64,000 nt of DNA, from the NCBI RefSeq assembly GCF_024204685.1, contig NZ_CP100350.1:620001-684000 (forward strand), written 5' to 3'. The position numbers and the translations under genes are program-made. Position 1 is the stretch's first letter; each line of letters starts with the position of its first letter. The notes under the pieces were generated by a model, which worked only from the letters and a program-made list of their open reading frames with translations, made no database searches and had not been told where the DNA came from. Shown piece after piece: positions 2,611 to 39,800 of the stretch. This stretch comes from Gilvimarinus sp. DA14. Its GTDB lineage: Bacteria; Pseudomonadota; Gammaproteobacteria; Pseudomonadales; Cellvibrionaceae.

Positions 2611-3330
2611 CTACTGGCTACTCTGCGGCGGGTAGCGATACTGAATCAGGACATCGAATGCCTGATTATCAGAGTCGGTTAAATTGGAACGCCCGGCATA
2701 GCCGGAAAGGCGCTTGTCAGAGTCAAAAGCGAGATAGATGGGGTCGAGAAACATGGCGAAAAACCGATTGTTTAACTCCATTTTCAAATACGTATAGTTT
2801 GACTGACGTTGTGTAAAGGGTGTTGCAGCAAAATCCACCGTTATCGCGCGCAGGCTAATATTTTTTAACCGACCTGGAAAGGCAAACGAAAACTCCAACC
2901 CCTGCTCCAGCTCGGTGAAATGCTGCTGAATCATGGCGACAAACCCAGCATCAATTACTTGCCTTTCGGCAAGGTCCACCCGACCGCTTTCTTGCTCTCC
3001 TGCTGCCGACTTGCTTAAAGCAATCTCACCGTCGATATTTTTAGCCTCGAGAATCAGCTCAAATCTCAGATCCTCAAAGCGAAAGTCGGGAGCCGTTTCG
3101 CTGTTGCTATAGTTCAGGGTTTTACGAGCAATGAGTTCTTGTTCGGGAGAGAAATACAACACCCTATGGTGAGCGTTGCCATCATCGTAATATTGTTCGC
3201 GATAAACAAGCTCGTCGCGATCATCCAGCTTATAGGCCTCTCCGATAGCGTAAGGATCGCTTTCACCACGAGCGAATACGCTGAGAAGAAGAGCCGTTAA
3301 AAAAGCAAGCATATGCGCGAAGCGATACAT
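2611..3330 (-). CDS. Unknown exported protein at the end of the photolyase/Cfa operon
   Basis: I do not recognise this 239-residue protein. It begins with a likely signal peptide (charged start, hydrophobic LAFLTALLLSVF, cleavage near ARG-ES), so it is probably periplasmic or outer-membrane associated. The mature part is charged and aromatic-rich, with no membrane segment, no cysteine pair and no recognisable catalytic motif. It lies nine bases after the DUF2878 gene and is probably the last gene of the operon. In related clusters this slot is often held by a DUF3833 lipoprotein, but the sequence here lacks a lipobox and I cannot place it in that family. Function unknown; a role in the lipid or light-stress pathway is inferred from position only. 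Confidence 0.75.
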   Translation of the reverse strand: MYRFAHMLAFLTALLLSVFARGESDPYAIGEAYKLDDRDELVYREQYYDDGNAHHRVLYFSPEQELIARKTLNYSNSETAPDFRFEDLRFELILEAKNIDGEIALSKSAAGEQESGRVDLAERQVIDAGFVAMIQQHFTELEQGLEFSFAFPGRLKNISLRAITVDFAATPFTQRQSNYTYLKMELNNRFFAMFLDPIYLAFDSDKRLSGYAGRSNLTDSDNQAFDVLIQYRYPPQSSQ

Positions 3331-3339
3331 ACAATGACC

Positions 3340-3849
3340 TCAGGCTTTTGCAGCAACTTTCAGAGAATCCGTAATGGCTTTGTGCAGCGGCAAGACTGTC
3401 AGCCACAAGGCAGCGATCACCAGCGCCCCCACCGGGCCTAGGTAGCCCCAGCTTACCCCGCTTAAGGCGACGCCGGCACTGTAGGACAAAGCCGCTGCGA
3501 CGGCGCCCAGCAGACTCGCCAACCAAAACCGCGAATAGATGATCCAGAGTGAGTGGCGTAGCGTCATGCCCAGCATAAACCACAGGCAAGCCAGCCATAG
3601 AGGTTGCAGCTCGGAGCTGTAGCGCAACACGTCTGCTTGCAACAGCGCAGTGTCGTGCACAAAGCCCAAAATCAAGGCGATAACTACCGCAAACATATCC
3701 TCTCGACGCTGCTTACTAAGATAAAAATGTAGCATTGCAAATACAAAGGTATAAGCTAATGCCCAGCCGAGCGGCGCGAGCAGGCAGATAAACCACCCAG
3801 CCTGAAAAGCCACCGCATTGGCGATGGTGAAACTGTAGTGATTAGCCAT
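3340..3849 (-). CDS. DUF2878 family membrane protein
   Basis: This is a 169-residue integral membrane protein with five or six hydrophobic segments and few charged loops, matching the size and pattern of DUF2878. The start is the ATG at 3849, which overlaps the end of the Cfa-like gene; the open frame extends further upstream but would then lie inside that gene. DUF2878 proteins recur beside Cfa-like methyltransferases, DUF1365 and COG2907 flavoproteins in proteobacteria, but I know of no biochemical role. Membrane location and operon position suggest handling of the modified lipid or its precursor, which is inference. Confidence 0.8.
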   Translation of the reverse strand: MANHYSFTIANAVAFQAGWFICLLAPLGWALAYTFVFAMLHFYLSKQRREDMFAVVIALILGFVHDTALLQADVLRYSSELQPLWLACLWFMLGMTLRHSLWIIYSRFWLASLLGAVAAALSYSAGVALSGVSWGYLGPVGALVIAALWLTVLPLHKAITDSLKVAAKA

Positions 3850-5110
3850 GACGATAATCGGGGCCCGCGAACAAAAACTGGCCCGTACCGATACTGCGTT
3901 CCACGAAACCACCCTCGCAATAACACAAGTAATATTCCCACAGACGAATAAAACGATCATCAAAGCCCTGCTCACGAACCTGGGGCAACTGCTGCAAGAA
4001 GCGCTCGCGCCAGCACTTCAAGGTTTTGGCGTAATCGAGGCCGATATCTTCAAAACTCAGCAGATTGAGCTTGGTCACATCGCCCATCAAGGCAAGCACT
4101 TTACTCACTGAGGGTAAACCACCGCCAGGGAAAATGTAGCGTTGAATAAAGTCCACTGAATTTTTTGCCATTTCATAACGCTGGTCGGCAATGGTAATGG
4201 CCTGGAGAAGCATCAATCCGTCGTCTTTTATTAATCCGGAGCAGACTTCGAAGTACTTGGGATAGTGCTCATAGCCCACGGCCTCGATCATCTCTACCGA
4301 CACAAGCTTGTCGTATTGCCCCTGCAGATCGCGATAGTCATCGAACAGCAAAGTAATCTTGTCGTTTAGCCCCAGTGCGGCAACTTTTTGTTTGGCATAC
4401 TCATACTGTTCCGCCGAAATGGTGGTGGTAGTCACCTTACAGCCGTAGTGCTGCGCCGCATAAATGGCCATTCCGCCCCACCCGGTGCCAATTTCCAACA
4501 AATGATCGGAAGGTTTCAGTTCGAGCTTTTCACAAATGGTGTGCAGCTTATGTTCGGCGGCTTGCTCAAGGCTCGCACTGGCATCGGGAAAAATAGCCGA
4601 CGAGTACATTAACTTTTCATCCAAAAACAAAGAGAAAAAATCGTTACCCAAGTCATAGTGGGCACTGATATTACGCCGGGCACCCTCTTTTGAATTTCGT
4701 TTGAAATAGGCAAAAAGGCGCAAGATCATTTTACTCAGGCGCGACTGCCCCTGGTCCATTGCATCCAGCGCATCCATATTGCGCACAAATATACGCACCA
4801 CACTGGTCAGATTAGGAGTCGACCAGTAGCCCGACATATAGGCCTCACCCGAGCCCACAGAGCCGGAGAAAGCCACATCGGCGTAGGCGGCTGGATCGTG
4901 AACATGAATATCCGCCACCAGCTCAGCGGATTGAGGCCGCTCACCAAAGGTGTAGCAATCATCATGTTCATGAATACGCAAACAGCCGTGCCGTAGTTTT
5001 TTCAGTGTTTTCAGCACCAGCTTCTTGGCCACCTGTTCGCGATAGCTAAAGGTCCTGGATCTGTGGGCGCTGAAGCCGGCGATACCTTTGCGTGTGGACG
5101 ATTCAGTCAC
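3842..5110 (-). CDS. Cfa-like SAM-dependent fatty-acid methyltransferase
   Basis: This 422-residue protein belongs to the cyclopropane-fatty-acid synthase family (COG2230), which transfers a methyl group from SAM to the double bond of membrane acyl chains. The SAM motif LLEIGTGWGGMAIYAAQHYG lies near residue 200, after the conserved HYDLGNDFFSLFLDEKLMYSS stretch (residues about 148-168, acyl-chain pocket). The start is a GTG preceded by GAGGAGA, overlapping the DUF1365 stop by eight bases. Members found in this DUF1365/COG2907 context differ from the housekeeping Cfa and may make other methylated lipids, such as precursors of furan fatty acids as in Rhodobacter UfaM. Which product is made cannot be read from sequence. 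Confidence 0.88.
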   Translation of the reverse strand: MTESSTRKGIAGFSAHRSRTFSYREQVAKKLVLKTLKKLRHGCLRIHEHDDCYTFGERPQSAELVADIHVHDPAAYADVAFSGSVGSGEAYMSGYWSTPNLTSVVRIFVRNMDALDAMDQGQSRLSKMILRLFAYFKRNSKEGARRNISAHYDLGNDFFSLFLDEKLMYSSAIFPDASASLEQAAEHKLHTICEKLELKPSDHLLEIGTGWGGMAIYAAQHYGCKVTTTTISAEQYEYAKQKVAALGLNDKITLLFDDYRDLQGQYDKLVSVEMIEAVGYEHYPKYFEVCSGLIKDDGLMLLQAITIADQRYEMAKNSVDFIQRYIFPGGGLPSVSKVLALMGDVTKLNLLSFEDIGLDYAKTLKCWRERFLQQLPQVREQGFDDRFIRLWEYYLCYCEGGFVERSIGTGQFLFAGPDYRHG

Positions 5111-5879
5111 AATGTTTCTCCTCTGCCAAATCCGAGCCCGGGTGGTTGTACACTGGCACCCGCTTTAACCACAGTTTTAGTGCCTGCCAGTAAATAGCGA
5201 TCGGCACTTTGATGCTATTGTAGGGTGTACGCCATAGAATGCGATTCAGATGTGCGGCACTCCATGATTCTTTGCTAAGCGTCAGGGTCGCGTCCATGTG
5301 CTTGACGCCCTGCTTGTGATTTTCCATGTGCACACTGAGCTTTTCACCCGGCCGGCTGCTAAACCAGTGATAATCCATTGCCAAGGGGTTAAACGGAGAT
5401 ACATGAAATTTCTTGGAAAATCTCACATCATTCGCTCTTTGTTTCTCATCCATTGGAACAAGATAACAATGCCGCTCATTCCAAGGGGTGTTATTCACCT
5501 CAGCAACAATCGCCATCAAACGGGAATTTTGATAAACGTAATAAAGACTGACAGGATTAAAACAAAACCCCCAGAGTCGCAAATTAGCCAACAAAAACAC
5601 TTTGCAGGGAGCGTCGGTGTCGATCACAGCTTGCGCCTTCTGCAAAACCACGTCTTTTAAGTTCTGACTGACCGGCGCCATATAGTCCTCGCGGCGAAAG
5701 CAGCCAAGATTGCTTTTATTGAACGACCAAAGACGGCTTTGCGAAAACAGCTCTGGCAGAGCATCTAAGTCCATAAAAAATAAATGCTGCCGATAACTAA
5801 ATTCATGCTTTTTAGGTGTGAAACGTCTATGCCTTACCCACCCGCTGTAAATAGCACTTTCAGGGTTTGGGGTGCTCAC
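5103..5879 (-). CDS. DUF1365 family protein
   Basis: This 258-residue protein carries the DUF1365 (COG3496) signature: an opening IYSGWVRHRRFTPKKHEF block, LWGFCFNPVSLYYVY in the middle and FHVSPFNPL later. The best start is the GTG at 5879, which overlaps the preceding TGA as GTGA; starts further upstream would lie inside the flavoprotein gene. DUF1365 proteins almost always sit with a COG2907 flavoprotein and a Cfa-like methyltransferase, suggesting three steps or partners in one lipid modification, but no activity is established to my knowledge. Coupling on both sides indicates tight stoichiometry. Confidence 0.85.
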   Translation of the reverse strand: MSTPNPESAIYSGWVRHRRFTPKKHEFSYRQHLFFMDLDALPELFSQSRLWSFNKSNLGCFRREDYMAPVSQNLKDVVLQKAQAVIDTDAPCKVFLLANLRLWGFCFNPVSLYYVYQNSRLMAIVAEVNNTPWNERHCYLVPMDEKQRANDVRFSKKFHVSPFNPLAMDYHWFSSRPGEKLSVHMENHKQGVKHMDATLTLSKESWSAAHLNRILWRTPYNSIKVPIAIYWQALKLWLKRVPVYNHPGSDLAEEKHCD

Positions 5880-7141
5880 AGGGACACTCCAAAATCTTTC
5901 GCGACTCGCAGTGCAGACACCACGCCATCTTCGTGAAATCCATTGTGCCAGTAGGCGCCACAATAATGGGTATGGTTTTGTGCGCTAATCTCCCGCCAAC
6001 GGGCTTTTGCTGCAACACTTTGCTGGGTAAAAACAGGGTGGGCGTAGTCGTACTCCCCGTATATTTTATTAGGGTCGATACGATCACCCGGGTTTACGGT
6101 AACGCAAAAGGTTTGCTCTGCCGCAAGCCTTTGCAATATGTTCATATTGTACGTCAGTAAGGTCGCATCATTATCATTCTTGGGGATACAGTAATTCCAG
6201 CTCGCCCAAGCACTATGGCGCTTTGGCAATAGCGATTGATCACTGTGCAAGACAACACGATTGTCTTTGTAGGGAATGCTGCCCAGTATCGAATTTTCTT
6301 GCGCGCTGGCATCACCTAGCATGGCGAGAGCCTGATCACTGTGGCAGGCGAACACGACTTCATCGAATTCATCGATACGGCCGTCCTGGTGCTGGATTAA
6401 AATGCGGTTGGCCTCGCGAGTAACCGTTTGAATGCGGGCATCGGTAACAATTGCGTCTTTAAACGGTTGAACTAATGGGGCCAGGTATGCGTGCGAGCCT
6501 CCCACTAAGGTATACCACTGAGGTTGATCGGTAATCGTAAGTAGACCGTGATTGTGGAAAAATCGAATAAAGAATTCCAGAGGCATTTGCGCCGCTGTTT
6601 CGGTGCCCGATGACCAAATCGCCGACACCATGGGAAACAGGTAGAAATTGATAAACTGGCTGCTGTAGCCCTCCCTTGCCACGAAATCCGCAAGCGTAAG
6701 GCTGGAATCAATCGCCTCGCGACGGAAGAGCTCGGTGCACTGGCGGTTAAATTTGACGATATCGGTAAGCATTTGCCAGTGCGTCGGCTTAAATACATTT
6801 CGCTTTTGCGCAAACAATCCCTGTATTGATGTGCCTGCATATTCATAACCGGTGGTTTCACAACTAACGCTGAAACCCATATCGGTCTTCTGCCCTGCCA
6901 CACCCAGCTCTTGCATCAATTTAATAAAGTTTGGGTAGGTTCTGTCGTTGTAGACAATAAAACCGGTATCAATCCAGTAGTCACCCTCGTCCGTTGCTAC
7001 CTTTTTGGTTGCTGTGTGACCGCCAATTTCGCTGGCTTTCTCGAACACAGTGACATTGTGATGCCGGCTGAGCAGATAAGCACAACAAAGTCCACTAACC
7101 CCCGCACCAATAACGGCGATATTCTTTTTCTGTTCACTCAT
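5876..7141 (-). CDS. COG2907 FAD-dependent amine-oxidase-fold protein
   Basis: This 421-residue flavoprotein has an N-terminal Rossmann motif (IAVIGAGVSGLCCAYLL) and an acidic ribose-binding residue in VFEKASEIGGHT, both typical of the amine oxidase/phytoene desaturase fold. The C-terminal CGAYWHNGFHEDGVVSALRVA closes the FAD site. The ATG at 7141 overlaps the stop of the upstream SDR gene by one base (TAATG). COG2907 proteins accompany DUF1365 and Cfa-like genes; in Rhodobacter homologous genes are under RpoE-ChrR control and lie near the furan fatty acid genes. A likely role is oxidation or desaturation of an acyl chain, which is inferred. Confidence 0.87.
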   Translation of the reverse strand: MSEQKKNIAVIGAGVSGLCCAYLLSRHHNVTVFEKASEIGGHTATKKVATDEGDYWIDTGFIVYNDRTYPNFIKLMQELGVAGQKTDMGFSVSCETTGYEYAGTSIQGLFAQKRNVFKPTHWQMLTDIVKFNRQCTELFRREAIDSSLTLADFVAREGYSSQFINFYLFPMVSAIWSSGTETAAQMPLEFFIRFFHNHGLLTITDQPQWYTLVGGSHAYLAPLVQPFKDAIVTDARIQTVTREANRILIQHQDGRIDEFDEVVFACHSDQALAMLGDASAQENSILGSIPYKDNRVVLHSDQSLLPKRHSAWASWNYCIPKNDNDATLLTYNMNILQRLAAEQTFCVTVNPGDRIDPNKIYGEYDYAHPVFTQQSVAAKARWREISAQNHTHYCGAYWHNGFHEDGVVSALRVAKDFGVSL

Positions 7142-7896
7142 TAAGTGCGCACCATTTTTTGCAGCAACTTTAGTTGGAGTCCGGTTGGCAAGCGGCCGAT
7201 AATGCCCAACGCGCAAGACAGCTGCCAGGGAAACTTATACAGATAACGCCGCTGTGCAATGGCTTTTAGCACATGTGCGGCCGCTTCATCAGCCTCCATT
7301 AGAAAAGGCATAGAAAAGTTATTCTGCGCGGTTAAGGGTGTCTTAATAAACCCGGGCTTAATAATGGTGACATCAATACCCCGGCGGTAAACATCGACCC
7401 TAAGGCTGGACAAGAAATAGTCGACCGCTGCCTTAGAGGCACCATAAGCCTCTGCCCTGGACAGAGGAGCCTCGGTCACTAAGCTGGAGATACCGACAAT
7501 GTGAGGAGCATTTTCTGAATCGGCCAAAAGCCCCATACAGGCATTGAGCACATTGATGGACCCTTGAAGGTTCACTTCAATGACACGCTTGCACAGCGCT
7601 GCCTCGACCTTACCCGGGTCCAGATATTCACAGGTACCCGCATTCAAAATCAGGGTATCGATTCCTTTTATCTGCGACGCGACACGCTCTACGCTTTCTA
7701 TATCAGTGATGTCGGCTTTTAACGTTGTCAACTGCAGCCCGAATTGATTTTTCAAGCTTTCCAATGGGCTGACATCTCTCGCCACGGCGTAAACATCACA
7801 GCCCTGAGCCAAAAGCTGCTTAACACAGGCCAGCCCCAGGCCTTTGCTGCCACCGGTGATCAGCACGCGACGACCGGCTAACGGATGTGAACTCAT
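7141..7896 (-). CDS. Short-chain dehydrogenase/reductase of the photolyase operon
   Basis: This is a 251-residue classical SDR. It has the cofactor motif TGGSKGLG near residue 15, NAG in LILNAGT near 86 and the YGASK active-site motif with an upstream SS near 137. It probably uses NADP(H), given the Lys after the Gly-rich loop. The substrate is unknown; the context of acyl-lipid modifying genes suggests an oxidised lipid or fatty aldehyde, which is inference. It overlaps the photolyase stop by four bases (ATGA) and abuts the flavoprotein gene, so it is clearly mid-operon. Confidence 0.88.
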   Translation of the reverse strand: MSSHPLAGRRVLITGGSKGLGLACVKQLLAQGCDVYAVARDVSPLESLKNQFGLQLTTLKADITDIESVERVASQIKGIDTLILNAGTCEYLDPGKVEAALCKRVIEVNLQGSINVLNACMGLLADSENAPHIVGISSLVTEAPLSRAEAYGASKAAVDYFLSSLRVDVYRRGIDVTIIKPGFIKTPLTAQNNFSMPFLMEADEAAAHVLKAIAQRRYLYKFPWQLSCALGIIGRLPTGLQLKLLQKMVRT

Positions 7897-9320
7897 AAAC
7901 TGACCTCTTTGTCTTTCGCCTCGGCAAACCGCTCGATAGCTTGCTTGCGGCTGAGCTTTACATCAACCAGAGGCTTCGGGTAGCCCTCTGCGCCCTCGCC
8001 TCGGTGCACACCTTTAGCTTTGACGCCATTAAATTCTGGTAATTGCGAGCAAATGAACTCCGCCTTTGGGTCATAACGTTCAGATTGGGTAATAGGGTTC
8101 ATGATGCGGAAATACGGCGCCGCATCGGTACCGGTTGAGGCACTCCACTGCCAACCACCGTTGTTCGCACAAAAGTCCGCATCAATTAACTGCTGCATAA
8201 AATAGCGTTCTCCCCAGCGCCAATCGATAGCCAGGTTTTTGCAAAGAAACATTGCCACAATCATGCGCAGACGGTTGTGCATCCAACCGGTTGTGTTTAG
8301 CTGCACCATCGCGGCATCAACAATGGGCACGCCAGTTTTTCCTTCACACCAGGCGTTGAAAACACTCTCTTTGTAACTCCAGCTGACCTGATCGGTATAG
8401 GCTTGAAGTGGCTTGTAGCGACATACCTCGGGGAACGCAGCCGCTACATGCATATAAAACTCACGCCAAATAAGCTCGTTGACCCATACGGAGATACCGG
8501 GGGCTGCACTCCAGTGCTCATCGCTGGCAAGGCTGGCAGCCGTTAGGCACTGTTTAGGGCTGAGGCTGCCAACCGCTAAGTAGGGTGAGAGGCCAGAGGT
8601 TCCGGCCATGGCGGGAAAGTCGCGGCGTTCATGATAGGTATGAATATCCTCGGCGCAGAATTTCTTCAGCTGCTTCAGCGCGGCCTGTTCACCCGGAGCC
8701 CAATAATCACTGAGTGGCTCCAGCTCAAGCCCCTTAAAACAATTCTCCAGCGCCGACTCGTCCACATTCCCCTTGCGGTTGCCCTTGGGCGGGGAATAAA
8801 CGTCGAGCCGCATCTCGGCCACCAATTTTTTCCAGGCCTTACTAAACGGTGTAAACACCTTATAGGTATCGCCCTGCTGGGTATGAAGTGCTCCTGGCGG
8901 CACCAGACATCGGTCATGGTAGCGCTTGAAATCGATATCAGCTTTTTCGCAGGCGTGCTTGGTGGCGCGGTCGCGCTGAATCTCATCCAGCGGGTATTCG
9001 GCATTGCAGGTTACCTTGCCGATATTATGCTTTTGGCAGTGGTTCACAATCGCAGTGGGAATGTCTTTCGCTTTAGCGACGCGCAGTAAATCAAGTTTGA
9101 TTCCACTGGCGGCCAGATCGATTTGCAACTCTCGTAGGGTCTCGCGCACAAACCACAACTTTCTCGCCCCCACCGGATGGGAGGTGATAAATTCGTCGCA
9201 CAGTACATAGACTGCCTGCACCTGAGGTTTTGTGGCATCCTCCTGATCTTGCAACGCATAGTGAAGTGCGGGGTTGTCGTGGACACGCAGGTCGTTGCGA
9301 AACCAAACCAGTGAGTGCAT
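7893..9320 (-). CDS. phrB: Deoxyribodipyrimidine photolyase (class I CPD family)
   Basis: This is a 475-residue photolyase that uses FADH- and a light-harvesting antenna to split UV-induced cyclobutane pyrimidine dimers. The N-terminal antenna domain begins with LVWFRNDLRVHDNPAL. The FAD/DNA-binding half contains TSGLSPYLAVGSLSPKQ, WVNELIWREFYMH, the GWMHNRLRMIVAMFLCKNL helix and the closing DAAPYFRIMNPITQSERYDP. It is coupled by one base to the SnoaL-like gene and by four bases to the SDR. Placement with a singlet-oxygen-type promoter fits induction by light or photo-oxidative stress. A cryptochrome role cannot be excluded, but all the usual photolyase motifs are present. Confidence 0.95.
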   Translation of the reverse strand: MHSLVWFRNDLRVHDNPALHYALQDQEDATKPQVQAVYVLCDEFITSHPVGARKLWFVRETLRELQIDLAASGIKLDLLRVAKAKDIPTAIVNHCQKHNIGKVTCNAEYPLDEIQRDRATKHACEKADIDFKRYHDRCLVPPGALHTQQGDTYKVFTPFSKAWKKLVAEMRLDVYSPPKGNRKGNVDESALENCFKGLELEPLSDYWAPGEQAALKQLKKFCAEDIHTYHERRDFPAMAGTSGLSPYLAVGSLSPKQCLTAASLASDEHWSAAPGISVWVNELIWREFYMHVAAAFPEVCRYKPLQAYTDQVSWSYKESVFNAWCEGKTGVPIVDAAMVQLNTTGWMHNRLRMIVAMFLCKNLAIDWRWGERYFMQQLIDADFCANNGGWQWSASTGTDAAPYFRIMNPITQSERYDPKAEFICSQLPEFNGVKAKGVHRGEGAEGYPKPLVDVKLSRKQAIERFAEAKDKEVSL

Positions 9321-9766
9321 CAGTGCTCCAAACGCTGACGAATTTTACGAACAATGGCACCGACTACAGGGACGTGTTCGTAGAGCATATTACCGAGATC
9401 GTAATAGTCGCGATGGCTAAAAATCTCGCGATTAGAATGCTGCAAATAGGAAACGCCCGGCACGCTGATTGACGCACCGGAGCTTAAGCGCGGATGAGAA
9501 AAAGTCATCACCCAAGTGAGACTGCTGTGGAATACATCGCCTTTGGGCTGGGTAACCACCTGCTCGAAGTGAAACTCACAAGCATTCAGACCTTCGGCCA
9601 TAGCAGAAAAGTAAGATTTAAGCGCATCGCGACCGTTAATTTGTGTCACCGGATCGGTGAAAACGACATTGTCATGGTATAGAGAAACGATCTCGCCGAT
9701 GCTCTCGCTGTTAAAGCTCTGATAACTGAGCATAAGGCGGTCGATCAGTGTGTTATCCGCGTTCAT
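9320..9766 (-). CDS. SnoaL/NTF2-like protein, first gene of the photolyase operon
   Basis: This 148-residue protein has the SnoaL-like (NTF2 superfamily) pattern: an N-terminal helix LIDRLMLSYQSFN, then VSLYHDNVVFTDPVTQINGRDALKSYFSAM. The fold forms a cone-shaped pocket used by many small enzymes and binding proteins; the ligand here is unknown. The ATG at 9766 is preferred over an upstream TTG because it has a GGGTAG box at a better distance. It is the promoter-proximal gene, about 30 bases after the predicted start site. NTF2-like genes also open the comparable rpoE-chrR-linked clusters of other gammaproteobacteria. Confidence 0.82.
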   Translation of the reverse strand: MNADNTLIDRLMLSYQSFNSESIGEIVSLYHDNVVFTDPVTQINGRDALKSYFSAMAEGLNACEFHFEQVVTQPKGDVFHSSLTWVMTFSHPRLSSGASISVPGVSYLQHSNREIFSHRDYYDLGNMLYEHVPVVGAIVRKIRQRLEH

Positions 9767-9802
9767 TTGCAACTACCCGATCAATAAATACTACGTAAAA
9801 GG

Positions 9803-9828
9803 TACGCTCAGAAGCCCGGTTCGGATCA
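9803..9828 (-). promoter_or_regulatory. Predicted RpoE-ChrR (ECF11) type promoter
   Basis: On the minus strand there is TGATCC, a 16-base spacer, then CGTA, ending about 36 bases before the ATG of the SnoaL-like gene. This matches the -35 TGATCC and -10 CGTA(A) reported for group IV ECF sigma factors that respond to singlet oxygen (RpoE-ChrR of Rhodobacter). The downstream genes (photolyase, Cfa, COG2907, DUF1365) belong to the known core of that regulon. The -35 begins two bases after the stop codon of the upstream gene. No cognate sigma factor lies in this window. Confidence 0.75.
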
Positions 9829-10779
9829 CTACACATTGCGTAAGCCCAGTTTCTCCGGGTGTGGTGACCAAAAGCTCTGGCGCTGTAAATAGGGGTCGTC
9901 CACTTTCAGCAAATGATGCTTTAGCAGAGTCATAGGCACCACAAGCGGTACATAGCCTAAGCGGTAGTTTTCAATCAAATCGCCCAGCTCGGCTTTTTCA
10001 CTGGTATCCAGTTGATTCTTCAAATAACCGCGCAAGTGCATTAGCGCGTTCGTGTTACCTTTGCGAGTTGCCTTGTGCCCCAGGGCGTACATAAATTCGC
10101 CGATAAAATCATTGCAAATGTCATCAATAGGCCGGCTTTTCAAATTGGCCAATAATCGACCAATGGTTTTATAGCTCTCGGGATGATGAGCCATTACTTG
10201 GTATTTGTAACGCGAGTAAAAATCAATCAGGCCTTTTGCACTGGGTGATGGCTCAACATTAACTCGCCAATCGTAATACGCGTAAACACGAGTAATAAAA
10301 TTTTCTCGCAAGCCGGCATCATTCAAGCGCCCCGCTTCTTCGACGGGCAGTAAGGGTAACTTATCAATAATTTGCTGAGCGTAAAGCCCGCGACCGTCTT
10401 TGTCTTTGGGGTAACCATTGGCGCCATAGCGTTTCATATCATACACACCGCAGCTGGGCGAGTTTTGCATGAAAATGTAGCCGCACAAATGGCTGAGTTC
10501 GCCGGCCATTTTGCGACCATAGTCTGCCAATGGCTCTGTCACATCGATACTGGGGTCGTCATTTTGTTGTACCCGTGTACCTTTATCAGTGGCCACCAGG
10601 CGGATGGGTTTACGCGGGGTACCCAACCCGATTGCCACTTCGGGGCAAACCGGGTAGTACTCGAAGTATTGGCTCAGCTGGTCGGTAATATAACGTGATC
10701 GCTTGTGCCCACCGTCGTAGCGCACTGTTTCGCCAAGCAAACACTGACTGACTCCTACGGGTATTTTTTCTAGCGCCAT
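9829..10779 (-). CDS. DUF523-DUF1722 (YbgA-like) protein
   Basis: This protein fuses an N-terminal DUF523 domain (IPVGVSQCLLGETVRYDGGH, CPEVAIGLGTPRKPIRLV) to a C-terminal DUF1722/YbgA domain (residues about 165-316, with LIDFYSRYKYQVMAHHP and HLRGYLKNQL). I start it at the ATG at 10779 (316 residues) because GGAG lies nine bases upstream and this fits the family N-terminus; an ATG at 10857 (342 residues) is possible but has no good ribosome binding site. YbgA is next to photolyase in Escherichia coli too, and the fused form occurs in light-induced gene sets of pseudomonads. The conserved cysteines suggest metal or Fe-S binding, but no function is proven. Confidence 0.87.
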   Translation of the reverse strand: MALEKIPVGVSQCLLGETVRYDGGHKRSRYITDQLSQYFEYYPVCPEVAIGLGTPRKPIRLVATDKGTRVQQNDDPSIDVTEPLADYGRKMAGELSHLCGYIFMQNSPSCGVYDMKRYGANGYPKDKDGRGLYAQQIIDKLPLLPVEEAGRLNDAGLRENFITRVYAYYDWRVNVEPSPSAKGLIDFYSRYKYQVMAHHPESYKTIGRLLANLKSRPIDDICNDFIGEFMYALGHKATRKGNTNALMHLRGYLKNQLDTSEKAELGDLIENYRLGYVPLVVPMTLLKHHLLKVDDPYLQRQSFWSPHPEKLGLRNV

Positions 10780-10880
10780 ACTTAACTGCTCCACTGCCGG
10801 CTGCGAATATTTATCGTCAAGCAAACCCCTGACTCTGGCAAGGTTATTCGCTGTCATCGAAAGTATAGATCACCGGACTA

Positions 10881-36815: not shown

Positions 36816-39800
36816 GTCAGCTGCAACCTGTCGACAGCTCAGCGCGCGCGCAGGCCTTAAACCCAGAGCAATCTTTTGCCGTTAGTGCTCCGGCGGGCTC
36901 GGGCAAGACCGGGCTACTGACCCACCGCGTGCTTAAACTATTGCTTAACGTGGAAGCGCCCGAACAGGTATTGGCGATCACTTTCACCAATAAAGCCGCC
37001 AGTGAAATGCGCGAGCGTATTATCACTGCCTTGGAACATGCCGCCCACTGCCCAGAGCCAGAGGCTGGACACGAAAAAGCGCTGTGGCAGACGGCCTCCG
37101 CGCTGCTCGCCCACGACCGTAAACACAACTGGCAGCTGCTGAAGAATCCCAGCCGCCTGCGGGTTTTAACTATCGATGGATTATGCCGCGCCATTACGGC
37201 GCAACTGCCTTTTCACAGCGGCCTGGGGGAACTCCCAGACACCTTAGAAGATCCCCAAGCGGTGTATCGCGAGGCCGCCTACCGGCTGCTGCAAGCTGCA
37301 GGCGATGACACACCTCACGGTCAGGCTTTGATTCAGCTATGCCGCCATTTGGATAACCGCCTGGAAGCTCTGGCAGATTTGTTTGTGGACTTACTCAGCA
37401 AACGCGAACAGTGGTTAAGCCTGATTTTATCGGCATCGGACGCCGAAGCGCGGGATTATTTTGAAGCCGTGCTGGGCTCGATTATCCGCGAGCATTTAAG
37501 CCAGATTCGCTCCCACCTGCAGCCAGTTGCCAGTGATTTATGTCTGCTGTTAGACAGAGCCGGTACATTCTTGCGCGAACAGCAGCCCGACAACCCCTTT
37601 GCCGCATTTGCCGGTATAACCGAATTGCCCGCTCCCGAGCCTGAGCAGATAGAAAACTGGAACTTGCTGGCGAGCTTTTTACTGACCAATACCGGCAGCT
37701 TTCGCAAAAGCTTAAACGTAAAACAAGGCGTCCCCGCTGGAGCAGCCGGCAAAGAGAGCAAAGTACTCTACGGTGAAATAACAGCATTACTGCAAACCGA
37801 GAATTCGCAAGTCGCAACCACCCTTGATGAAATTCGTTCACTACCCAGCATCGGCTACAGTGACAGTGAGTGGGATATTTTGCAGTGCTTAACCCGCAGC
37901 TTGCCCCGCCTTGCCGCTGAGCTGTGGCTATGTTTTGCCGAACGCGGTGCCACCGACTTTACCGAAATCACCCTTGCCGCCCTGCAAGCGCTGGGCGAAG
38001 ACGATGCCCCGAGCGAGATTGCGCTAAAGCTGGACTATCAAATCCGTCATATACTGGTCGATGAGTTTCAAGATACCTCACAACCTCAACTGCAACTGCT
38101 GGAAAAACTTACCGCGGGCTGGGAGCCCGGCGATGGCCGGACGTTGTTTATCGTTGGCGATGGCATGCAGTCCTGTTATGGCTTTCGTAACGCCAATGTA
38201 GGCCTGTTTTTACAGGCCCGAGCCAGCGGCATTGGCTCGGTGGACCTGACCCCGCTAGACTTGGAGGTGAATTTCCGCTCCCGCGCTACCGTTGTGGACT
38301 GGGTAAACAGCACCTTTCAACAGGCCTTTCCAACGCGGGACGATATATCTCGCGGCGCTGTCAGCTACAGCCCTTCGCAGGCCTTTAAACCGGCATCAGA
38401 GCACAGCGATGTACAGTTACTTGTTTGCGCCTACGACGAGCAACAAGAGCAAACTATTGATGACGCCCGCGCCAGCGAGGCGAATGCTATTGTCGAGATT
38501 ATTAGAGAGGCGCTTGCGCAAAAACCCGACGACACAATTGCTGTGCTGGGACGAAACCGCGGCCACTTGAGCCTTATTATCGAAACCTTAAACCGCGAAG
38601 GTATCGCCTTTCAGGCGCAAGACATGGATTCGCTGGCAAGCCGCATGGTGATTGCTGACCTCTTCAGCCTGACCCGCGCCCTACTGCGCCCAGAGGACCG
38701 CACTGCCTGGCTCGCGGTACTGCGCGCCCCATGGACCGGGCTGGATTTACACGATCTGAGCGCACTGGTAGGCAACAGCGATTCCGAAAACCCCCTCAGC
38801 GAATATCGCGGTTTTGATTTTGTTTGGGCAAGGCTCTTCAACCCGAAAGCACTATCCGATCTCAGCACTGCAGGCCAAAAGCGCTGCGAGCGCCTTGCCG
38901 AGGTTTTTCAACAAGCGTTTGCGCACCGGCAGCGCAAGAGCCTGCGCACCTGGGTTTACGGTATTTGGTGTGCACTCGGCGCCCCGGCGGCCCTGTTAGC
39001 CGAGGACGACCACACGGTCGCCTGCCAATTTTTTGATCTGCTGGATAAATACGAAAAAGCCGGCACTCTGGAAGACTGGGACGGGTTTAGCCGCGCGATT
39101 GAATCTCTGTATGCCGCCTCTAACAATGCCGATGCCCGAGTGCAGGTGATGACCATGCACAAATCTAAGGGTCTGGAATTCGACACGGTGATAATTCCCG
39201 GCCTCGATCGGCGCTCGCGTGGCGATGATAAATCTCTCTTATTGTGGCGCGAAAGGCTCTCTGCTATCGGTGAGCCGCAACTGCTGCTGGGGCCGCTCGC
39301 GCCCGAAGGACAGAACCAAGGGCCAATTTATAATTACCTGCGCGCCGAGCAGAAAAAGCAATCCGCGTTTGAGGCGATCCGCCTGCTTTACGTGGGCTGT
39401 ACTCGCGCCATCAGCAACCTCTACCTGACCGCCTGCATCAAGCAGGACCCTGAGCAATCAGCGGATGCCTTGCGCCCCGCCGGTCAGCTGAGCTCACTCT
39501 GGCCGTACTTGTATCAACAGGCGAAATTTTTAGCGACTAAACCAACGGCCAAATCATCCAGCCAAGCGTCTATGGCACAACCATTAAGGCGCCTCCCCGA
39601 CGCTTGGCGCCCCCCCGAAGCCATGGATAACCCGCGCCTGGCGATGCTAAGAGGCAAAGAGTTTGCCGACGACGATGACAACTTACCCGACGCGGAAACT
39701 ACTGAAGCTCGTCTGGCAAGGCTCACCGGCACAGTCATCCATCGGGTTTTTGAAGCCCTCGCCAGTGGCAAATTACCACCGGATACGGAGAGCTACATCA

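Follow-up and report, generated by a model that had tools for sequence, protein, structure and literature searches.

A candidate ChrR-dependent sigma factor promoter before a photolyase and lipid-enzyme operon in Gilvimarinus sp. DA14

The operon and its two promoter-like elements

The DNA analysed here, a 64-kb stretch referred to as the window, covers positions 620001-684000 of the single-contig, 3.96-Mb genome of Gilvimarinus sp. DA14. It contains a rudS-type gene followed by a run of eight genes on one strand, mostly joined by end-to-start overlaps, which would form a single transcript (Table 1). The gene ahead of the run encodes a TudS-DUF1722 fusion of the RudS type (PMC11417400). For its start we took the ATG that opens MALEKIPVG, following the related genome G007; the mechanical open reading frame extends to 10857 and overlaps the upstream element P1 described below. 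The run includes photolyase, cyclopropane-fatty-acid (CFA)-type, FAD and dehydrogenase families, in agreement with an earlier note, made from the sequence alone, that had placed known core targets of the regulator behind the site studied here. A CFA-type methyltransferase, an FAD oxidoreductase and a DUF1365 protein, the ufaM, ufaD and ufaO families, are clustered within it; these assignments are at family level and the enzyme activities are predicted. UfaM, UfaD and UfaO are a methyltransferase, an FAD protein and a DUF1365 protein that have been tied to furan-fatty-acid synthesis (PMC7380195), and the three enzymes of the run resemble those of that pathway. The consensus scan that located the terminator-like stem-loop gave four hits in the region, with 1.9 expected.

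Table 1. Coordinates of the features at the locus, in window positions.
Feature	Positions	Strand	Remarks
Terminator-like stem-loop	10888..10913	minus	between upstream LysR-type gene and P1; consensus scan
P1, TGATCT-N16-CGAATA	10845..10872	minus	promoter-like element before rudS, related to P2
rudS-type gene	9829..10779	minus	2-thiouracil desulfurase domain + DUF1722; name from PMC11417400
P2, TGATCC-N16-CGTA	9803..9828	minus	sigmaE (ECF11)-type promoter by motif
SnoaL-like protein (SnoaL_2)	9320..9766	minus	first gene behind P2
DNA photolyase	7893..9320	minus
Short-chain dehydrogenase	7141..7896	minus
FAD amine-oxidase-type protein, UfaD-like	5876..7144	minus	by family and synteny, PMC7380195
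DUF1365 protein, UfaO-like	5103..5900	minus	start provisional; by family, PMC7380195
CFA-synthase-type methyltransferase, UfaM-like	3842..5110	minus	by family and synteny
DUF2878 protein	3340..3975	minus	mechanical start, probably over-extended
Final ORF of run	2611..3330	minus	no Pfam match

The candidate promoter P2, TGATCCGAACCGGGCTTCTGAGCGTA, lies directly after the rudS stop in the 62-nt gap 9767-9828, and its CGTA is separated by 36 bases from the ATG of the SnoaL-like gene at 9766. Position and strand are thus as the earlier note had claimed; the interval it had marked, 9766-9830, spans the gap and reaches one base into the ATG and two bases into the rudS stop codon. P2 is the only exact TGATCC-N16-CGTA in the window. 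Dinucleotide shuffles of the window contained a mean of 0.02 exact matches (2 of 100 shuffles had one), so that the rarity asserted in the note holds, while its figure of about 0.1 chance matches was too high. When both strands were scored with a matrix built from 40 ChrR-adjacent sites of relatives, P2 ranked second and P1 third; the top match, at 39050, runs antisense within a helicase-like 1143-aa ORF and was dropped. Between 9700 and 11100 no sigma-70-type promoter was detected, where shuffles gave an expectation of 1.9.

P1 carries CGAA where the consensus has CGTA, and A occupies that position in 1 of the 40 training sites. The pattern TGATC[CT]-N16-CGAA[TC]A nonetheless precedes rudS in every one of the six operon-bearing genus members (G000, G001, G003, G004, G006 and G007). 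Across these six, 5 of 6 columns are invariant in the first hexamer, 5 of 6 in the second and 1 of 16 in the spacer, and in G001, G006 and G007 the pattern is unique genome-wide. The sigma factor that would read P2 may also recognise P1.

A regulator pair in trans and the motif across the genome

A search of the genome for rpoE-chrR returned a single match to the ChrR model TIGR02451, at 2970131-2970757 (180.5 bits, cut-off 124.5), together with an ECF sigma factor gene that overlaps the beginning of chrR. The pair lies on the same contig, 2.3 Mb from the window, in an operon of its own with the same motif; control in trans, as the earlier note had proposed, is therefore provided for. Compared with PDB chains by phmmer, the sigma factor matched 2q1z_A (Rhodobacter RpoE) first, at 3.4e-35, with the next hit at 2.3e-14, and ChrR matched 2z2s_B first, at 9.2e-26. 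In the alignment with 2z2s_B, the N-terminal H, the HxxxCxxC motif, the cupin HxHxxxE and the later His are all aligned; we take these residues to be metal-binding, as zinc motif and cupin ligands. Among the NCBIfam matches listed for the sigma factor (25 of 76), the general sigma70-ECF model alone was above cut-off. An exact TGATCC-N16-CGTA precedes rpoE-chrR itself (L048 6926-6951, minus strand), as would suit autoregulation. Another copy, TGATCT-N16-CGTA, is found about 110 nt farther upstream of rpoE (L048 7037-7062, minus strand).

A gapped search for exact matches at spacings of 12 to 20 found 27 places in the genome (2, 2, 2, 2, 7, 1, 3, 6 and 2). The 16-nt spacing is highest at seven, N19 comes close at six, and the eight spacings other than N16 total 20, a mean of 2.5. 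Four of the seven N16 sites stand shortly before rpoE, a fasciclin gene, a lipocalin gene and the SnoaL-like gene. The remaining three are at 2328741, inside a 349-aa ORF; at 2085977, 99 nt upstream of a sulfatase ORF; and at 1597831, before a PAS/chemoreceptor-like ORF. Exact matches do arise by chance, since one of them is inside the 349-aa ORF and N19 gives six. The degenerate form TSATCY-N16-CGTW occurs in 43 places, most of them inside long ORFs, and these were not counted as sites; 38 were classified, and the other five, the window site and four near rpoE, were read directly.

Two of the motif-bearing genes can be followed through the genus. A lipoprotein with four fasciclin stretches is encoded divergently from rpoE (L048 7177-9015, plus strand) behind an exact motif (7111-7136, plus strand). 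Relatives of this protein in G007, G001, G004 and G003 are 79-94% identical and each is preceded by TGATC[CT]-N16-CGTA; the ORF divergent from rpoE in G006 has neither similarity to the fasciclin protein nor the motif. The lipocalin motif (L051 3693-3718, plus strand) lies 34 nt upstream of its gene and persists, with no more than one mismatch, in 4/4 genus members having the gene. The lipocalin and the fasciclin lipoprotein are testable further regulon members.

We also observed TGATCT-N16-CGTA 41 nt upstream of a DCC1-like thiol-disulfide oxidoreductase gene (L184 1501-1526, minus strand), which is divergent from a ferrochelatase-like ORF. TGATC-N16-CGTA is kept before this gene in 5/6 genus members.

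The sigma factor, the anti-sigma factor, the motif and the core targets are already established (PMC6852236, PMC5507510, PMC4336711). In Rhodobacter sphaeroides the core regulon comprises rpoE-chrR and furan-fatty-acid genes (PMC6852236, PMC7380195), together with photolyase, CFA-type synthase, FAD oxidoreductase and dehydrogenase (PMC5507510). The window genome likewise has the sigma/anti-sigma pair of this RpoE-ChrR (ECF11) system and the core target families; unlike in R. sphaeroides, its targets form one run with SnoaL in front, and its lipocalin and fasciclin lipoprotein also carry the motif. For Pseudomonas syringae DC3000, work on PSPTO_1043/1042 with ChIP-seq and a reporter gave the consensus TGATCC-N16-CGTA, and the phrB-to-cfa locus is controlled in trans; the sigma factor binds within the gene next to phrB, immediately ahead of phrB itself (PMC5507510). 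That organism shares with the window the consensus motif and a photolyase-cfa locus apart from the regulator genes, but the DC3000 site reported there is aGATCC within PSPTO_1122, whereas the window site is exact and lies in the gap that a MerR gene occupies in relatives. In Shewanella oneidensis the rpoE2-chrR motif is given before ybgA (ybgA-phrB-cfa), rpoE2 and pgpD-hemH2 (PMC4336711); the listed operon site there precedes ybgA, whereas the window has a rudS-proximal element with CGAATA and an internal consensus site.

The P2 motif in relatives and its interpretation

We examined 97 genomes, in which the SnoaL protein is present in 65 (window genome included) and ChrR is above cut-off in 68. 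With N16 spacing and one mismatch allowed, the motif precedes SnoaL within 150 nt in 37 of 64 loci, the window among them and G086 left out at a contig edge. At spacings 10-15 and 17-23 it was found at 0-2 SnoaL loci, and 200 scrambled motifs gave a mean of 0.17 loci and at most two. Sorted by SnoaL neighbourhood, the motif is present in 34/44 ChrR-adjacent loci, 1/10 MerR-adjacent loci and 2/10 loci with neither, where MerR presence means about 60 bits or more (our own choice) among the matches listed. Four ChrR-adjacent loci (G021, G037, G046 and G055) were counted negative with the motif just past 150 nt, and six more negatives of this class carry it with two mismatches. The sole MerR-adjacent positive is G004, where the terminal part of the MerR gene contains TAATCC-N16-CGTA.

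The two positives with neither regulator adjacent are the window genome and G007, which are also the only ones of the six genus members with the operon to have P2 in the rudS-SnoaL gap. G007 retains TGATCT-N16-CGTA at the P2 distance with a changed spacer sequence. G003 and G006 carry this operon and an rpoE-chrR pair but no P2; P2 is therefore not essential to the operon.

We consider it highly probable that P2 is a promoter read by a ChrR-restrained RpoE-type sigma factor (ECF11 group) encoded in trans. The site and its spacing, the gene order, the regulator genes, the conservation and the absence of a LitR gene and operator are read directly from the genomes; from these we infer that the sigma factor reads P2 in vivo. 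In the proposed mechanism, a ChrR-family anti-sigma factor would hold the RpoE-type ECF sigma factor inactive until ChrR was removed under photo-oxidative stress, which by analogy would mean singlet oxygen or organic peroxides. The freed sigma factor would then transcribe the eight-gene run from P2, producing the SnoaL-like protein, photolyase, dehydrogenase, furan-type enzymes and two more, while rudS ahead of the run would have its own related element in P1. Singlet oxygen as the inducing signal is suggested by the known systems. The model would place the photolyase and probable furan-fatty-acid genes of a non-model bacterium under a singlet-oxygen-type alarm.

An operon driven mainly from P1 or another upstream start, with P2 adding little, would account for the retention of P1 in all six genus members with the operon and of P2 in two, and a rudS-SnoaL distance of 62 nt on one strand would allow it. 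Yet P2 fits the trained matrix better than P1 (17.9 versus 16.0) and was retained in G007 despite the spacer change, and we regard this alternative as possible but doubtful. It is very unlikely that a different ECF sigma factor of the genome reads P2: there are alternative sigma factors to choose from, with 13 sigma-70 region 2 matches in the genome, but the motif is that of the published RpoE-ChrR systems (as given in the reports cited above) and also precedes the rpoE-chrR operon here. Chance as the origin of P2 was rejected on the shuffles, the spacing profile and the conservation. The genome has roughly two to three exact matches at any one spacing, the other spacings do yield one to six, and G003 and G006 lack P2; the site nevertheless sits in a 62-nt gap before a kind of operon that has the motif in most ChrR-adjacent relatives, and its retention in G007 speaks against chance, which makes a fortuitous match highly implausible.

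A LitR-type regulator in relatives and the history of operon control

In Pseudomonas, the cluster controlled by class II LitR proteins (PplR/PmlR) is light-inducible and runs from phrB to ufaM, with the operator T(G/A)TACA-N12-TGTA(C/T)A (PMC9758184). Like the window, the cluster described there brings photolyase, dehydrogenase, FAD oxidoreductase and UfaM together; unlike it, the window has no LitR-type gene or operator; both occur in G001 and G004 of the same genus. Control of the window operon by a LitR/CarH-type light-responsive repressor, as in Pseudomonas, is extremely improbable. Relatives that possess this kind of operon do carry a MerR gene in the rudS-SnoaL interval, and their rudS is preceded by LitR operators; in the window genome the MerR profile reaches 36 bits at best (over its N-terminal third, in a 124-aa frame), and no operator with at most one mismatch occurs within 300 nt before its rudS or on either window strand.

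The MerR gene between rudS and SnoaL is found in G001, G004 and several other genera. Three of the MerR proteins were scanned and matched MerR models only, with no match to a B12-domain model at E 0.001; we call them LitR-like by operator and gene neighbourhood. The operator spacing N12 was taken from PMC9758184, and N13 was added by us after the N12-only output had been inspected. Sixteen loci were scored in a first batch (10 of 17 fetched, plus six genus members) and the remaining seven later. T(G/A)TACA-N12/N13-TGTA(C/T)A, with at most one mismatch, was present in 11 of 12 MerR loci of the first batch, the exception being G076; in two of those 12, G031 and G056, the rudS-MerR pair is away from SnoaL. 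Among the seven further MerR loci, G062, G095 and G093 have the operator and G020, G089, G030 and G081 do not; in two of these, G093 (with operator) and G020 (without), rudS is beside MerR. Overall, the operator precedes rudS in 12 of 14 loci with rudS beside the MerR gene, is absent in 5/19 MerR loci, and was found before rudS in 0/4 MerR-less genus members, the window included. Exact operators occurred in 1 of 3200 shuffled regions; allowing up to one mismatch raised the number to 23. A spacing of 18 is also seen in 5/16 loci, each time sharing a half-site with an N12/N13 operator. The earlier note had recognized P2 and missed both the second element before rudS and this LitR-type regulator of relatives.

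In G001 and G004 the LitR operator starts directly after the second hexamer of P1. A combined gate is therefore possible there, in which sigmaE may transcribe the operon and LitR repress it in the dark. In Vibrio cholerae, both ChrR and a MerR-type protein mediate the response to blue light (PMC5241685).

Relationships were taken from a SnoaL tree of 62 rows (G086, G096 and G057 excluded; bootstrap not fully settled). The window genome and G007 are paired at 100/96 and joined by G003 at 100/90, G006 and G004 are paired at 100/91, and the six genus members are united at 100/98; a deeper node linking them to other LitR-bearing loci is weak (78/88). By our reading, this topology would require one gain of P2 and two losses of the LitR-type gene. 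Control of the operon appears to have shifted from a LitR-type repressor to sigmaE: in this evolutionary reading the operon would originally have been of the rudS-LitR-SnoaL-photolyase type, with LitR and its operator lost later, and the internal sigmaE promoter would have a single origin, in the common ancestor of G007 and the window genome. We lean slightly towards the view that one genus displays successive stages of regulator exchange, namely LitR gene, operator and P1 (G001, G004), P1 alone (G003, G006), and a new P2 at the gene's former place (the window genome and G007). A ChrR-adjacent operon is present in G002 and G005; their operon is not the direct parent, because there is no photolyase ORF in the G002 run and the SnoaL proteins of both fall in the other half of the tree. 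Among the listed titles and abstract openings of the open-licence literature, we found no exchange of LitR for sigmaE at such an operon. The added interest of the locus lies in the second element P1 and in this apparent exchange within one genus, whose close set of genomes allows a direct comparison of LitR-type repression and sigma factor control at the same operon. As a separate observation, one locus of G025 (L223) has TGATCC about 94 nt before the rudS core and TGTACA, a LitR half-site, at the -10 position.
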